The notes: generated by a model not told the origin, from the sequence alone. Shown: positions 32,096 to 39,365, counted from the first letter of the stretch. The stretch is 64,000 bases of DNA from Alphaproteobacteria bacterium (GCA_002401965.1 NVUR01000003.1:51738-115737); one strand, 5' to 3'. Numbers and translations: made by a program.

Positions 32096-33124
32096 TTAAG
32101 GCGATAAATCAAAATAGATACGGTGATAGGTGTTCTCACTGTCGGGGGAAAGGCGTTTTTCTCTTAAGATTTTTGTGGTTTTCTTCAGAGATAGGACAAT
32201 CATGCTGCCCTTACCATTGTTCAGGGGTTCAACACTGTAGGATTCTAGAAGTTTAGAATTTCTGAATGTTTTATTGTTTCCGTCAATCCATCGCGCGTCG
32301 GGTAGCTCGATAATAATAAGTTTTTCATCATTATCCAGATCGATACTGAAATTGCTTCTGTGGTTTGTGTCTAGCACAATACGCAGTTTATCTGCATGTT
32401 CTCCAACACGCAGATTCATCGCAACAAGACCGTCATATGTTGGCGGTGGTGTGGCTTTGGGGGCAACCCGTTTTTCGGGGGGCTCTTTTGGTTTATTATG
32501 TTGTTTTTTCGGAGGCTTATCCGGTTCTTTATTTACTTGAGGTGGGGGAGCTTGCGCCTGAACAACTTTCTGCGGGTCAAGTCGTGGTGAGGGCTGTGGT
32601 GTCAGTTGCGTTACTTGCAACTGAGGTTCAGAGGGCTCTACCAATGTTTGAGGTGGCTGATTGGCTGGTGTTTCCTGCAGCAATACCTCGAGTTCCTTGA
32701 TAAGGTTCTGAATGTCCGACTCCACAGCGGCTAACCGGACGATAGATGGTTTGTAAGTATCAAATTCTTTCTTAAGATCAACAACGGCATTTTCAACGCG
32801 ATTAAAGCGGTCACCGGTGTCTTTGATGTTCTTTGTGAATAACGTGTCTGCGTTAATGCCTTTCATTGGCTTTAAGGCAGGCAGACCATTGGGCATATAT
32901 TGATTTTTCGTCTGCCCCAGCTTGGTTGGCTGGTTATTAAATGCTGGTGGAAGGGCGATTGGTGCGCTAATGCTTTCGTTCTTACCTGCATTTTTTGATT
33001 TTTTTGCAGATGGCGCAGTATTTGATTCGGTTGTTTTAAGGTGCAAAAGTCCTTCAGGACTACACGCAGTAAGTAGACCCAAAAATAGTGTGAAACATAG
33101 ACTCAAAGCTATTTTTTTATACAT
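32096..33124 (-). CDS. AMIN-domain-like lipoprotein
   Basis: Lipobox LLTAC; Pro-rich linker; C-terminal NLRVGEHADKLRIVLDTNHRSNFSIDLDNDEKLIIIELPDARW resembles AMIN. ATG 33124 preferred. Confidence 0.65.
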   Translation of the reverse strand: MYKKIALSLCFTLFLGLLTACSPEGLLHLKTTESNTAPSAKKSKNAGKNESISAPIALPPAFNNQPTKLGQTKNQYMPNGLPALKPMKGINADTLFTKNIKDTGDRFNRVENAVVDLKKEFDTYKPSIVRLAAVESDIQNLIKELEVLLQETPANQPPQTLVEPSEPQLQVTQLTPQPSPRLDPQKVVQAQAPPPQVNKEPDKPPKKQHNKPKEPPEKRVAPKATPPPTYDGLVAMNLRVGEHADKLRIVLDTNHRSNFSIDLDNDEKLIIIELPDARWIDGNNKTFRNSKLLESYSVEPLNNGKGSMIVLSLKKTTKILREKRLSPDSENTYHRIYFDLSP

Positions 33125-33423
33125 ATAGTAAAGAACCACAAGCCTCAGAATAGAGACATTAAGAACTAAAAAAGTACGCAGCAGAAAACACCAGATTAGA
33201 TTCTATCCTGAAAACACTATTGGCATCAATAGGATATTTAAAAATAAAGTGAAAATTATGGTTGATTTTTTGTTTTTGATTCATTGGGCTGTGCTTTTAT
33301 CTCTAAATGTAGGAAATAGTGGTTATCTGTATGTTGCAGCAGTTATTATCGTTTATAGTCGTTGCGGTAGGGTGTGTGTTTTTGTATAGTTGCTTATTGT
33401 CATGAAGGTTTGGGAGGCTTAGT

Positions 33424-33876
33424 ATGCGTTTTTTTTGCGGCTTAATATGCGTTTTTTTTCTTTTTACATCTCCTACATATGCGGGGGTCACAACGGTTCG
33501 GGCGCTTAGTTTTGGTCAATTTGTGATGAAGAATAATGATGCTGCTTATGATATAACGATCAACACCAATGGTAGTTATTCTTTCTCGGCTGCGGGGTAT
33601 ATAGAAATTGTTGCGCCGCAAGAGGGGGTTTATGATCTGGATGGTATGGCTGCAAATACTGCGATTACCAGTGTTACGGTTACGCAATTAACATCGTTGA
33701 GTGGGTCTGGGTTTGATATGCAGATGATTAACTTTCAGGAAACGCATCCAGCCAGTACTGATGGTTCTGGTGTGGCGAGGATAGAGATTGGCGCAACGGC
33801 GCGTAATAATGCTATTGGTGGCTCTTATATCGATCAAACGTTTGGTGGCGTAATACAAATTCAAATTAATTTTTAA
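33424..33876 (+). CDS. DUF4402-like secreted (candidate pilin-like) protein 1
   Basis: Signal peptide to TYA; VRALSFGQFVMKNNDAAYDITINTNGSYSFSAAGYIEIVAPQEGVYDLDG; terminal beta strand GGVIQIQINF. Confidence 0.7.
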   Translation: MRFFCGLICVFFLFTSPTYAGVTTVRALSFGQFVMKNNDAAYDITINTNGSYSFSAAGYIEIVAPQEGVYDLDGMAANTAITSVTVTQLTSLSGSGFDMQMINFQETHPASTDGSGVARIEIGATARNNAIGGSYIDQTFGGVIQIQINF

Positions 33877-33918
33877 TCTCTTACATGATTTTATTAAAGT
33901 AAAAAAGGAATTGTAATA

Positions 33919-34770
33919 ATGAAGAAATATTTATTGTCTCTGTTTATTTGGAGTGTTGTCCTGAGTGGTTTCTTTGGGGGGGCTGTGCAGGTTGCGCAGG
34001 CTGATATTTTGATTACGCCGACGCGTGTTGTCTTTGAAGGGCGCGATCGTTTCGGGACGGTGACGCTTGCCAATAATGGGGATAAGGTGAGTACGTACAA
34101 GATGGATTGGCGGTTTTTCCGTATGCAAGAGCAGGGACCAGCCTATGTAAGGGTTCAGGGCGAGGAGGTTGCACTTGATTTGTCTAAGTATATCGTTTTT
34201 TCACCACGGCAGGTCACGTTACAGCCTGGGGCGTCGCAAAAAGTACGTTTGGCGTTGCGCCGCTCAGAGGAGATTCCAGATGGTGATTACCATGTGCATT
34301 TAAGTTTTTCTACGGTGTCTAGTGAGAGTCTTGATATTGTTGAAGGTCAGGAGCCCAAGGCGCAGCCAACGTCGGGTATGTCTGTTAAAATCAATGTTGG
34401 TTATACTATCCCGATTATTTTGCGATCTGGGGATGTGCATGTTGATTCGTCGATTGGTCGTATTAGTTTATCGCGGAACCCTAACAATGGATTTTTGAAA
34501 GTCGCGGTGCCAGTTCATCGTGGGGGAGGACCGTATTCTGTTTTAGGGCATCTTATGGTGTATCATATAGATGAAAATGGTAATGAAGTGCGCGTGGGAG
34601 AGATCAGTAATGCTCATATTTTCCCAGAAGTGGATCGTCGCGTTTTCGATGTACAGTTAATAAAGGATATTGCTGGCGGTTCGTTAAGGGTCGTGATGTA
34701 TGATTATACATACAATAAAAGCATTGATAATAATGTTATTTATGCGGAAGAGACATTTCCCTTGGAGTGA
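33919..34770 (+). CDS. PapD-like periplasmic fimbrial chaperone
   Basis: ILITPTRVVFEGRDRFGTVTLANNGDKVSTYKMDWRFF, FSPRQVTLQPGASQKVRLALRR...PDGDYHVHLSF, matching the PapD N-terminal domain pattern. Confidence 0.85.
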   Translation: MKKYLLSLFIWSVVLSGFFGGAVQVAQADILITPTRVVFEGRDRFGTVTLANNGDKVSTYKMDWRFFRMQEQGPAYVRVQGEEVALDLSKYIVFSPRQVTLQPGASQKVRLALRRSEEIPDGDYHVHLSFSTVSSESLDIVEGQEPKAQPTSGMSVKINVGYTIPIILRSGDVHVDSSIGRISLSRNPNNGFLKVAVPVHRGGGPYSVLGHLMVYHIDENGNEVRVGEISNAHIFPEVDRRVFDVQLIKDIAGGSLRVVMYDYTYNKSIDNNVIYAEETFPLE

Positions 34771-35166
34771 TATGTTGAGGCGTAGGGTGGTTTTTGTAGT
34801 CCGTTGGTCTGGTATTATTCAGGTCTAACGGGCTTAATGCTTCGCTTGCAGAGGGGGATATAGTGTGCTTTGCTGGTTATCTGGCTGTGCTGTTGTTTAT
34901 TGTAGGTGTTTCGTTGCAGTAGCATTTAATCTCTATCTGGGTTCCTTCCCCGCAGCCTTGCGGCGTCAAATATTATCATAAAGCGAATGTATTTTTAGCA
35001 CTTACTCTGCCTATACACCGTAGTCTTGCTGAGGAGTTATTCATTTTATGACATATTGTTACCGTATATTTATACGGCTACGTGCTTTGTTCTAAATCTC
35101 GTACATAAATAAAGTCACATTCACTAAATGTAATTTCGCTTTATGGGTATCGCAGTATCAGGCAAT

Positions 35167-35194
35167 AAAAAAGGCATCCATAGATGCCTTTTTT
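35167..35194 (-). terminator. intrinsic terminator downstream of the second DUF4402-like gene
   Basis: AAAAAAGGCATC-CATA-GATGCCTTTTTT perfect inverted repeat. Confidence 0.9.
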
Positions 35195-35228
35195 GTATTT
35201 CGTAATAAATTTCGGTATTCTCTTAGTC

Positions 35229-35813
35229 TTAGTAAGAGAATGTCACATCAAAACTTGCTGGATGAACACCATCTGCAGCTTGTTCTGCAAACGTTATTGT
35301 TCCACCAAATGTAACTGTTTCTGCTGTGGCTGCGCCTACAACTGTTACTGTTCCAGTGTCTGTGTTCGCATCAAGAGAGATTGGACCTTCGGAGGCCGTT
35401 CTATATGATGTGGTGTTGAGAGATATCCCAGCATCGGCAAAATCACTGTCACCTGAACGGGTTATGGTCAAGGATGATGCGGATGGTGTTTCAACGGTAA
35501 CGACGCCCTCTGTTAGGGGGGCTGTAACTTGTAAGACTGTTGAGTCTGTTACACCAGCAACTGATGAGGCAACGGTTCCATCGCTTGTTAGTGTGATGAT
35601 AACGTCATTTGACGTGTCATCTGCACCACCTGCAGGGATGATGGCAACCCATTCACCAAAATCCATGTCGGATACGTCAACGGTTGTAATTGCGCTGGTC
35701 AGTGTAAGTGTTGCATTAACTGTTTCTGTTTGTGCAAATGAATTGCTTGTCATGGCGAAGCCAAGCGATACTGCGCTTGCGAAGGCCAAAAGTTTAAGGG
35801 TGTTATGTCTCAT
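35229..35813 (-). CDS. DUF4402-like secreted (candidate pilin-like) protein 2
   Basis: 194 aa; signal peptide ...MTSNSFAQ; ETVNATLTLTSAITTVDVSDMDFGEWVAI; terminal strand HPASFDVTFSY. Confidence 0.75.
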   Translation of the reverse strand: MRHNTLKLLAFASAVSLGFAMTSNSFAQTETVNATLTLTSAITTVDVSDMDFGEWVAIIPAGGADDTSNDVIITLTSDGTVASSVAGVTDSTVLQVTAPLTEGVVTVETPSASSLTITRSGDSDFADAGISLNTTSYRTASEGPISLDANTDTGTVTVVGAATAETVTFGGTITFAEQAADGVHPASFDVTFSY

Positions 35814-35842
35814 TAGGTTTCTCCTTTTTTCCCTAGATTAAG

Positions 35843-35888
35843 ATACTGTTACTCAGTCGGTGAGTGGGATAAAATACTGATACTCAGT
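35843..35888. promoter_or_regulatory. paired direct repeats, candidate regulator-binding sites
   Basis: ATACTGTTACTCAGT (35843-35857) and ATACTGATACTCAGT (35874-35888), one mismatch, 31 bp start to start. Confidence 0.45.
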
Positions 35889-36137
35889 AAGTAGTAAAGA
35901 TAAGATAGATATCTCTAAGTACCATTATCATACATAAATGGTTAAATCATTATTAATATAGTCAGTTTAGTTAAAATACATGTGGCTAACTTAGATGGTC
36001 ACCCAGAGAAGTACGTTGTTTTTATCATTAATCAATTGTCTTTGTCAAGTGGTTGTGATGTAATGTGCTTAATGGTTTTCAACTCTTACCCACAGAGTTA
36101 TTCGTTTTTTATATACAGGAACATTGGTTGTTTTCGA

Positions 36138-39100
36138 ATGAAGCATTTCTTTCATTTTTGTTTTTTATATGGAATTTTTACGTGTTTTATCTTCGCGCCT
36201 TCTTATCTAAGCGCGCAGCAATTAACACATAACACTGGTGATGCCTTTGTACAGAATCAAAAGAGGTTGGCCTTGGCGCGTTCTTTTGTTGCAAAGCTGA
36301 AGGCTGGGTTGGGGCGTGGTCATGTTATCCCTTCGGAGACGAATATATTACCGGAAGGAGAAATTCTATTGTTGCAGCCTATTTTGGGCGGTAACTTGCG
36401 TGTGGATGGTTTGATTTATGGTCTTGTTAAAAATCGGGGCGTTTTGTTATCATTGCGCGATATAAGCGATGTTTTGCAAATTCCATTGGTGATTGATATT
36501 GAAAAAAAGACTGTCGAAGGGTGGTATGTCAGGGAAGATAAAGTATTTTCATTAGATCTGAATACTGGCATTGCGCGCACTGATATCGGTGAATTTAATA
36601 TATCCAAAAATGTTTTTATTGAGGGTGATGATGTTCTTGTTCCGGCCTCTGAACTGGGTCAATGGATGGATTTTGAATTTAAGCCTGTTGTATCGGCGCA
36701 AGACTTGCGTATTACCTCTGCGGAACTATTACCTATTCAAGCGCGGGATAAACGTAGGCAATCAAGCCTTGGCGGGCATAAAATTCCAAAGCCGTCATTA
36801 CCGCGCATTGATGATGATTATAGAGCTGTTGGCATGCCTTCCATCGATGTCGCCACGCGTTCTGTCTATCGAAGGCAAGGCGACAGTACTGAGGGCGTTG
36901 ATGCCCATAGTGCAACACTGCGTAGCATTGGAGATTTCGCGCATGGGACGTTATCAACGCAAATACAGTTAAATGATACGGATTACCTAAAAAATGTACG
37001 GGTGAAATATAAACGGGAATCCTTGGATGCTGATTTATTGGGAGCGTTAAAGGCACGGCGCTTTGAGGTCGGTGATATAACAACAACGCATGTGCCGTTG
37101 GGGGGGCGTACGTCTCAAGAATTAGGTGTTCGGGTAACAAATACAGATTCTCTGCGAACCTTCAGTACGCCAACAACGGGAATATCTGGTACGGGATTCC
37201 CTGGTTGGGATGTTGAATTATACCGCGATACTCAGCTTGTCGGGTTTAGAGAAATAGGCGAGGACGGGTTTTATCAATTTTCGAATGTGAATCTGTTTCA
37301 GTCTGATAATAATTTTCGCTTGGTATTTTATGGACCGCAAGGCGAGGTAAGGGAGGAAGAGTTATATATTCCCGTTGATCGTACGTTGCTCTCTCGTGGA
37401 GAGGGAATATATGACGTTTCTATAAGTCTGGATGGGGAAAATACATATGATAAGTCTGATGCGAATTTGAATTCGGATGACGATACGAATGTTAGTGTAT
37501 CCGCGCTGTATGAATATCCCGTCGCTGATGGTGTTACGGTAAGTGCAGGTGCGCGCAGCCATGTTGAACAGGCGCAACGTGATAGTGTCGCAAATATTGG
37601 TGTGTCTCTTGTCGCAAGTCAGGTCTTGATTAACGCGGGGCTTGCTGTTGATGATGAGGGGGATATATCCGCTCAGCTTGTTGGACGCCGTGATTTCGGT
37701 GAACATAAAGTGAGTGGCACATTGGATTGGCTTGGCGCGAATTTTGATGTGCAAGGTGGTGGCGCAGAAAATGATATTGGAACTTTACGCAGTAATATTA
37801 GCGTGAACGGCCCATTACCGTTTCAATTGGGGCATAAGACCAGATATAATCTCTCCACAAATTATTTATTGGATACGAATGATGAGTATAGTTTAAGATC
37901 ATCCGTAGGGGTTAACACGATTTGGAAGCGTTTAGCCCTAAATGAACAGTTGACGCATCTAACAGGCTCAACGCTTCAGGATGACAGTCTTGATTCTGTA
38001 ACCAGTGTTACGGGAACATACGGGCGTAATCATGTCAGGCTTCTCGCAAATTATGAATTAAAGCCGAATAATGAGCTTAACAATATTTTGGCATCTTATA
38101 AGCGGGATTTTACCAAAAAGCTAAATATGGAGTTAAGGGTTGATAAGCGCTTTGAAACAGCATTAACGGAGTATTCAGCAAAACTGGATTGGCAGGCAGG
38201 CTTTGCCCGTATTTCTCCAAGGGTGACTTATAATAATCAGAAAGATTTTTTCGCGGGGTTGGATACGCGCTTTAGTTTGTTGCGTGATCCGTCGCAAGGG
38301 CGCGTGAAAATGTATGATTATAATATTACAAGTTCTGGTGGTGTCAGTGCATTTGTCTATCTTGATAAGGATGGCGATGGTTTGTTCAATGGTGAAGATG
38401 AGCCATTAGAAGGGGTCGTTGTTAAGGCACCTCAAAATGGTGGTCGTCAATTGACGGATGGTAATGGTATCGCGCTGTTTACGCGTATGGGGAAATTGCG
38501 CCTTACAGATGTCTATGTCGATGCAGAGTCATTGCAAGATCCCACTTGGGTTTCGGATTTTGACGGGGTATCTATTCTGCCGCGTGAAGGGAATATTGTG
38601 GAGGTTAATTTCCCTGTGCATATATCTGGTGAATTGGATGGCAATGTTTATGCGCGCGCTGTGCCTTTGCCGCAAGTTGATGGTGAAGAGGTGCGCGCGG
38701 CAAAGCCTGTGTCTTTGAAGAATGTTCGCTTGAAGCTGTATAATGATAAAGGTGCGCTACAGGATAGTACTTTTACGGATGTGACTGGGTTTTACTATTT
38801 CCCCCGTATACCACCAGGGCGTTACCTTGTGATTATTGATGAAAGGAGCGCGGCACGTGGGCAATTTATCAGACCTGCGCCTCAACAAATAGAAATTGGT
38901 TATGATGGGACGGTTATTTACGGTAATGATATTTATGTTGATGTCGGCAAGGGAGATATCCCAAGCGCATTCTTACCTGATTTAGATGATTATAAAGCCC
39001 GACACCCCCATATTGATTTTTCCAATGATGATTATGATTTTGTTTTGAATTTAGGGGACTATAATTCAAGGTTATTGATGTCAGTGGTGTGGTATAAGCT

Positions 39101-39365
39101 GCGCTCACGTTATGATGCCATGCTTACGGGGGCGGATATTTTTGTTCCTCCCACGCAAAGCTATGTCGATGTGAAAACAGGAAAACATACATTACGTGTG
39201 GGGGTGCGCCACATTACTTTGGAACAGGCCTATAATCGTTGTCGCGCACTGATGGTGCGGGAACAATATTGTAAGGTTGAAATCTATCCTTCTTACATAA
39301 GGCAGAAACCTGTGAAACAGGCACAAGCCGATATTGCGGTGACGCCGGATCATGCTTTGAAATGA
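36138..39365 (+). CDS. usher-like outer membrane protein with C-terminal SdrD-B/carboxypeptidase-regulatory-like domains
   Basis: About 1075 aa from the ATG at 36138. GWDVELYRDTQLVGFREIGEDGFYQFSNVNLFQSDNNFRLVFYGPQGEVREEELYIPVDRTLLSRGEGIYDVS resembles an usher plug region. It is followed by barrel-like alternating strands and VFVYLDKDGDGLFNGEDEPLEGVVV-type and KNVRLKLYNDKGALQDSTFTDVTGFYYFPRIPPGRYLV domains. Confidence 0.75.
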   Translation: MKHFFHFCFLYGIFTCFIFAPSYLSAQQLTHNTGDAFVQNQKRLALARSFVAKLKAGLGRGHVIPSETNILPEGEILLLQPILGGNLRVDGLIYGLVKNRGVLLSLRDISDVLQIPLVIDIEKKTVEGWYVREDKVFSLDLNTGIARTDIGEFNISKNVFIEGDDVLVPASELGQWMDFEFKPVVSAQDLRITSAELLPIQARDKRRQSSLGGHKIPKPSLPRIDDDYRAVGMPSIDVATRSVYRRQGDSTEGVDAHSATLRSIGDFAHGTLSTQIQLNDTDYLKNVRVKYKRESLDADLLGALKARRFEVGDITTTHVPLGGRTSQELGVRVTNTDSLRTFSTPTTGISGTGFPGWDVELYRDTQLVGFREIGEDGFYQFSNVNLFQSDNNFRLVFYGPQGEVREEELYIPVDRTLLSRGEGIYDVSISLDGENTYDKSDANLNSDDDTNVSVSALYEYPVADGVTVSAGARSHVEQAQRDSVANIGVSLVASQVLINAGLAVDDEGDISAQLVGRRDFGEHKVSGTLDWLGANFDVQGGGAENDIGTLRSNISVNGPLPFQLGHKTRYNLSTNYLLDTNDEYSLRSSVGVNTIWKRLALNEQLTHLTGSTLQDDSLDSVTSVTGTYGRNHVRLLANYELKPNNELNNILASYKRDFTKKLNMELRVDKRFETALTEYSAKLDWQAGFARISPRVTYNNQKDFFAGLDTRFSLLRDPSQGRVKMYDYNITSSGGVSAFVYLDKDGDGLFNGEDEPLEGVVVKAPQNGGRQLTDGNGIALFTRMGKLRLTDVYVDAESLQDPTWVSDFDGVSILPREGNIVEVNFPVHISGELDGNVYARAVPLPQVDGEEVRAAKPVSLKNVRLKLYNDKGALQDSTFTDVTGFYYFPRIPPGRYLVIIDERSAARGQFIRPAPQQIEIGYDGTVIYGNDIYVDVGKGDIPSAFLPDLDDYKARHPHIDFSNDDYDFVLNLGDYNSRLLMSVVWYKLRSRYDAMLTGADIFVPPTQSYVDVKTGKHTLRVGVRHITLEQAYNRCRALMVREQYCKVEIYPSYIRQKPVKQAQADIAVTPDHALK

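Follow-up and report, generated by a model that had tools for sequence, protein, structure and literature searches.

Chaperone-usher systems have been divided into six clades in three groups, with the classical and alternative systems confined to Beta- and Gammaproteobacteria (PMC9452303). The archaic (sigma) pili, such as Acinetobacter Csu (CsuC/CsuD), resemble the locus described here in combining small subunits with a PapD-like chaperone and an usher, in the proline and basic anchor residue of the chaperone, and in having an aromatic-rich terminal strand and an N-terminal alternating strand in the subunits. They differ in that the subunits belong to DUF4402 here and to SCPU there, while the tip-like subunit here has one domain and the Csu tip subunit, CsuE, is a two-domain adhesin (PMC9452303). 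The usher also differs, being mostly ~900-1290 aa here, with a Cu_amine_oxidN1-like N-domain, an SdrD_B domain and often AMIN or SPOR tails, and falling in a separate clade from PF00577 comparators whose sigma identity is assumed. The classical gamma pili (type 1, FimC/FimD) appear, from profile homology, to share the same usher and chaperone fold superfamily; however, most ushers of the present type are missed by Pfam Usher, their subunit family is different, they do not group with FimD (support 0.98), and the chaperone described here carries a threonine at the position of PapD Lys112 (manual alignment). Alternative (alpha) pili, represented by the E. coli common pilus (EcpB/EcpC), likewise have non-classical chaperone features and very divergent ushers, but EcpC stands apart from the clade found here, and no EcpA-like subunits were seen. 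The Gram-positive WxL/WxLIP complexes also have a two-domain Ig-like partner, which is predicted to insert a strand into a small beta protein; unlike the present system, they have no usher, a Gram-positive wall and a membrane-anchored partner. In the openly accessible literature searched, we found no publication on a DUF4402-linked usher clade, no usher with AMIN or SPOR domains, and nothing relevant on DUF4402 (PF14352).

Layout and conservation of the locus

The window, a 64,000-nucleotide stretch of a 2.09 Mb alphaproteobacterial draft genome, contains four open reading frames at 33424-39365, which an earlier note had read as a DUF4402, PapD-like chaperone and usher-like group. All four are present at these coordinates, together with a neighbouring lipoprotein gene:

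32096-33139, minus strand: putative lipoprotein with a C-terminal AMIN-like domain (homologue neighbours, domain fusion)
33140-33423, no strand: divergent intergenic region between the lipoprotein gene and the short-subunit/chaperone pair, a possible shared control region
33424-33876, plus strand: predicted DUF4402 subunit, short class, 150 aa (Pfam DUF4402 E 1.5e-5, above the gathering score; length class)
33919-34770, plus strand: predicted PapD-like periplasmic chaperone, 283 aa (PapD_N E 0.0034, below the gathering score; family profile)
35229-35813, minus strand: predicted DUF4402 subunit, long class, 194 aa (DUF4402 E 0.0086, below the gathering score; family alignment)
36138-39365, plus strand: predicted divergent outer-membrane usher, 1075 aa (hhalign to canonical ushers)
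Usher residues ~97-178: Cu_amine_oxidN1-like N-terminal domain
Usher residues ~350-430: predicted barrel plug
Usher residues ~857-902: SdrD_B/transthyretin-like C-terminal domain
Usher residues ~945-1052: SPOR-like C-terminal domain

Because the second DUF4402 gene lies on the minus strand, the window genes do not form one operon. The lipoprotein gene is transcribed divergently from the short-subunit gene; promoter and terminator scans gave no excess over shuffles, including none for promoters in 33140-33423, and NCBIfam returned nothing above cut-off for the window proteins. The earlier reading did not include the AMIN-like lipoprotein as a fifth component, the division of the subunits into two classes, or the SPOR-like tail of the usher.

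Conserved co-occurrence of these genes had been set beforehand as a test, and it is present. Linkage was counted by six-frame HMM search at the 53 usher loci that have 4 kb or more of flanking sequence on each side. Of these, 51 have the chaperone and 52 one or more DUF4402-like genes within 4.5 kb; 43 have two or more such genes. The neighbourhoods compared came from usher loci in the order, class and phylum of the window genome and on named plasmids; the HMMs were trained on same-order loci, and the independent counts are those from other orders and the rest of the phylum. At the level of whole genomes, 16 of 290 in the class sample carry DUF4402, 20 carry the usher and 12 carry both (Fisher p 3.5e-13), while the corresponding numbers for the phylum sample (378 genomes) are 14, 13 and 10, the two genes usually lying a few kb apart. 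The four-gene group is thus real, and its association goes beyond chance.

Usher homologues occur in 28/38 related genomes, and the window's own genome holds two further usher-like gene copies. Many loci have the order subunit-subunit-chaperone-usher on one strand, which is the order of a pilus operon; in the genus of the window, the prevailing arrangement is DUF4402 and chaperone genes in the forward direction, a reversed DUF4402 gene, and a forward usher gene. By synteny, the cluster spans Alpha-, Beta- and Gammaproteobacteria, and it is also carried on Sphingopyxis, Novosphingobium, Polaromonas and Pseudoalteromonas plasmids. On two Polaromonas plasmids, JS666 plasmid 2 (L179) and pE5SP1 (L178), it sits beside IS6 transposase genes and may be mobile. 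No relatives were found in the viral contigs scanned.

Usher, chaperone and possible peptidoglycan-binding modules

The 1075-aa protein is identified by homology as a divergent outer-membrane usher. A profile of 31 relatives aligns with 18 PF00577 ushers of the class (hhalign 99.75%, E 2.1e-27) over 646 columns that span the plug, the barrel and the first C-terminal domain, and the plug-like segment pointed out previously falls on the plug of canonical ushers in this alignment; the reversed profile, as a control, reaches 15% over 31 columns. Pfam Usher (PF00577) has no match at all to the window protein and matches 5/31 relatives singly (best 1.5e-8), with one relative scoring 30.2 bits against a cut-off of 27.1. 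The only meaningful Pfam matches of the window usher are SdrD_B and CarboxypepD_reg at residues 857-902 (SdrD_B E 6e-9). Cu_amine_oxidN1 matches the N-terminal domain in 11/31 relatives, and profile comparison relates this domain weakly to the usher N-domain. A single-sequence AlphaFold model, made with no alignment, has a pLDDT of 31.6, too low to read the fold, and phmmer searches of the PDB with the window usher and chaperone returned nothing meaningful. In public records, the usher relatives are named 'carboxypeptidase regulatory-like domain-containing protein', 'SdrD B-like' or 'hypothetical'. The one hit of the contig scan with the single usher, a Cupriavidus DUF11/SdrD repeat protein, has only the SdrD-like domain in common with it and was rejected as a relative.

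In the usher tree, all DUF4402-linked ushers lie on one side (support 0.954), with FimD and the PF00577 ushers grouped opposite (support 0.984); EcpC falls outside the FimD/PF00577 group and is also excluded from the DUF4402-linked clade (support 0.95). This tree is built on a difficult alignment (~14% identity) and is without the beta, kappa and pi clades and named sigma ushers such as CsuD, while its alphaproteobacterial PF00577 ushers are assumed to be mostly sigma and EcpC alone represents the alpha clade. Three subunits checked next to these PF00577 ushers are SCPU. Three loci (L132, L169 and L170) combine DUF4402 with ushers of canonical length (802-831 aa) that have no Pfam Usher match and lie within the DUF4402-linked side; these may be intermediate forms. 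As judged from this tree, DUF4402-linked ushers are a clade apart from FimD, EcpC and the sampled alphaproteobacterial PF00577 ushers. The earlier proposals that the large protein is a divergent usher, that DUF4402 proteins are its subunits, and that together they represent an under-described chaperone-usher branch are each backed by homology, by synteny across the three proteobacterial classes, and by the usher tree. On its sequence, the system is placed in the chaperone-usher superfamily by homology, without grouping with the gamma or alpha representatives and without the sigma subunit family.

The product of 33919-34770 is a PapD-like chaperone by family comparison. The earlier note had called it clear, which does not hold for the window protein alone, given its sub-threshold PapD_N score, but does for the family, in which PapD_N matches 20/31 relatives (best 9e-7) and the profile aligns with canonical chaperones (hhalign E 1.9e-18). 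Pro is the only invariant residue of the chaperone superfamily, and in archaic and alternative chaperones the carboxylate is anchored by the residue corresponding to CsuC Arg89 (PMC4654587). Here, the proline (Pro96 in the window) is present in 31/31 relatives, the position aligned with CsuC Arg89 in strand F1 is Arg in 19/31 and His in 12/31 (H125 in the window), and residues 156-164 alternate between hydrophobic and polar, as expected of a G1 donor strand. These three features match those published for non-classical chaperones (PMC4654587). Publicly, the chaperones are named 'molecular chaperone', once 'fimbria/pilus periplasmic chaperone' and once hypothetical. Among solved structures, the best match of the chaperone profile is EfmWxLIP1 (PDB 9i25, 9i1y; E 1e-5, with a low alignment accuracy of 0.69), which ranks above the known pilus chaperones and is not matched by the profile of canonical chaperones. 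This may hint at a common origin of WxL complexes and chaperone-usher systems.

AMIN or SPOR modules may hold the usher to peptidoglycan, which is the least certain part of our reading. SPOR domains bind peptidoglycan. The tail of window-type ushers is SPOR-like (hhalign 97.6%, E 3e-12, 24 relatives), a call that comes from the family profile, with no Pfam SPOR match to the isolated window tail, and separate SPOR genes adjoin the usher in gammaproteobacterial and other loci. In five loci (L046-L050), the usher C-terminus instead carries a fused AMIN-like domain. A search with the C-terminal 112 residues of the window lipoprotein finds the neighbouring lipoproteins of the other loci and these five usher C-termini (E 1e-10 to 6e-4). 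The window lipoprotein itself matches AMIN (PF11741) below cut-off (E 0.06), while a homologue (L050:11230-12543) scores 26.0 bits, above cut-off. Homologues of the lipoprotein gene adjoin the usher cluster in 18/53 loci, and the AMIN link as a whole is seen in under half of loci, mainly in relatives of the window genome. The AMIN domains of PilQ bind peptidoglycan (PMC5285504).

Two classes of DUF4402 subunit

Pfam DUF4402 (PF14352) scores 26.1 bits for 33424-33876, against a gathering score of 25.2, and 17.2 bits for 35229-35813. In public annotation, proteins of this kind go by 'DUF4402 protein' or 'hypothetical protein'. Profile comparison shows the long and short forms to be homologues (hhalign 99.2%, E 1e-19, against 0.1% for the reversed control), and they fall into two classes by the distance from signal-peptide cleavage to a conserved FG motif. 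Using a simple cleavage rule made without use of the motif, this distance is bimodal, with 29 subunits at 9-14 residues, 52 at 20-30 and none at 15-19; nine outliers beyond 30 residues appear to result from wrongly called cleavage sites or from divergent motifs. The window short subunit, with the mature N-terminus GVTTVRALSFG, has 9 residues before FG and no N-terminal donor-strand extension, while the long subunit has 24 and contains an alternating segment, QTETVNATLTL, as its putative donor strand. In the long class only, hydrophobic residues alternate at -20, -18, -16 and -14 before FG, followed by a break and then strand A. This alternation is the donor-strand pattern of chaperone-usher pilins and implies linear polymerization; the long-class N-terminal segment probably acts as a pilin donor strand.

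Both classes occur in 26/37 loci with at least two detected subunits, the other 11 not having both under the simple signal-peptide rule. No locus has more than one detected short subunit per usher, the sole locus record with two short subunits having two ushers, and a short gene immediately precedes the chaperone in 20/23 cases, a long gene in 5/38. A short subunit would be able to accept a strand but not to donate one and would therefore be the first one out, which suggests that it is the pilus tip or initiator and that the long subunit is the rod pilin. No two-domain tip adhesin was identified; the short subunit is single-domain and shows no additional adhesin domain. The C-terminal strand of alternating residues ending in, or close to, an aromatic, noticed at the outset in the two window subunits, proved general, an aromatic residue lying within the last three positions in 50/52 long and 20/29 short subunits. 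The absence of cysteine, also remarked on, holds for both window subunits and does not extend to the family (cysteine in 25/81 mature subunits). For the long subunit, AlphaFold without an alignment gave a pLDDT of 38.9, too low to read.

Assembly model and alternative explanations

The locus very probably encodes a pilus system of the chaperone-usher type, from a branch that is separate and widespread. In such a system, the Ig-like fold of a DUF4402 subunit would be incomplete on its own; in the periplasm, the chaperone would complete it with its G1 strand and then pass the subunit to the divergent outer-membrane usher. The short subunit, having no N-terminal strand to donate, would be exported first as the tip or initiator. 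Long subunits would chain on behind, the N-terminal strand of each fitting into the groove of the subunit ahead, and the fibre would exit through the usher pore. The usher may be anchored to peptidoglycan by the AMIN-like lipoprotein or by an AMIN- or SPOR-like tail of its own.

The exported DUF4402 proteins might instead make a surface coat or short adhesive fibrillae, not long pili. The number of small subunits is usually between one and three, the tip-like subunit is a single domain, and a two-domain tip adhesin was not recognised, which makes this conceivable, though we consider it doubtful, as the donor-strand pattern of the long class implies linear polymerization. It is unlikely that the system is simply a divergent archaic (sigma) one with no separate status, in which DUF4402 is a drifted spore-coat-U pilin. 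Such a relationship would account for the non-classical proline and basic anchor residue of the chaperone and for the similarity between DUF4402 and SCPU pilins, which consists of marginal HMM cross-matches and a C-terminal hhalign match of 55% over 31 columns that does not establish homology. However, the window subunits have no match to Pfam SCPU (PF05229), the DUF4402-linked ushers stand apart from the alphaproteobacterial PF00577 ushers, FimD and EcpC (supports 0.95 and 0.98), and even ushers of canonical length stay on the DUF4402 side when they accompany these subunits.

The match to EfmWxLIP1 (E 1e-5) and the peptidoglycan-binding domains in the locus bring up a WxL/WxLIP-like complex, in which the 'chaperone' would be a stable partner holding DUF4402 at the cell wall and not an assembly chaperone; the predicted insertion of a WxLIP strand into WxL (PMC10599100) also counts in its favour. 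Given the constant pairing of the chaperone with an usher, the PapD_N matches in 20/31 chaperone relatives and the low accuracy of the WxLIP alignment (0.69), we regard such a complex as very improbable.

Returning to the pilus system, we see the chances as evenly balanced that it constitutes a seventh major chaperone-usher lineage, about as common in the class as Pfam-detectable ushers and characterized by DUF4402 pilins, a one-domain tip and AMIN/SPOR-tethered ushers. Pfam detects ushers in ~22 of 290 class genomes, and DUF4402-type ushers occur in ~20. Since the two are about equally frequent, the pilus repertoire of the sampled class has probably been under-counted by about half under the Pfam Usher model alone. 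A large protein class now named 'carboxypeptidase regulatory-like' or 'hypothetical' gains a probable function, and, given the AMIN/SPOR link, one may ask how ushers come to be positioned in the cell wall. DUF4402, a family so far without a function, gains a probable one as a pilus subunit, and its two classes provide a simple test of which subunit starts the fibre.

Variation in subunit gene content was also seen. One 0.9 Mb genome (G274) has at least 14 DUF4402 genes spread over many contigs, an unusual subunit expansion, and at four loci of one subgroup (L048, L049, L050 and L054), a gene of ~400-430 aa on the opposite strand lies between two DUF4402 genes.
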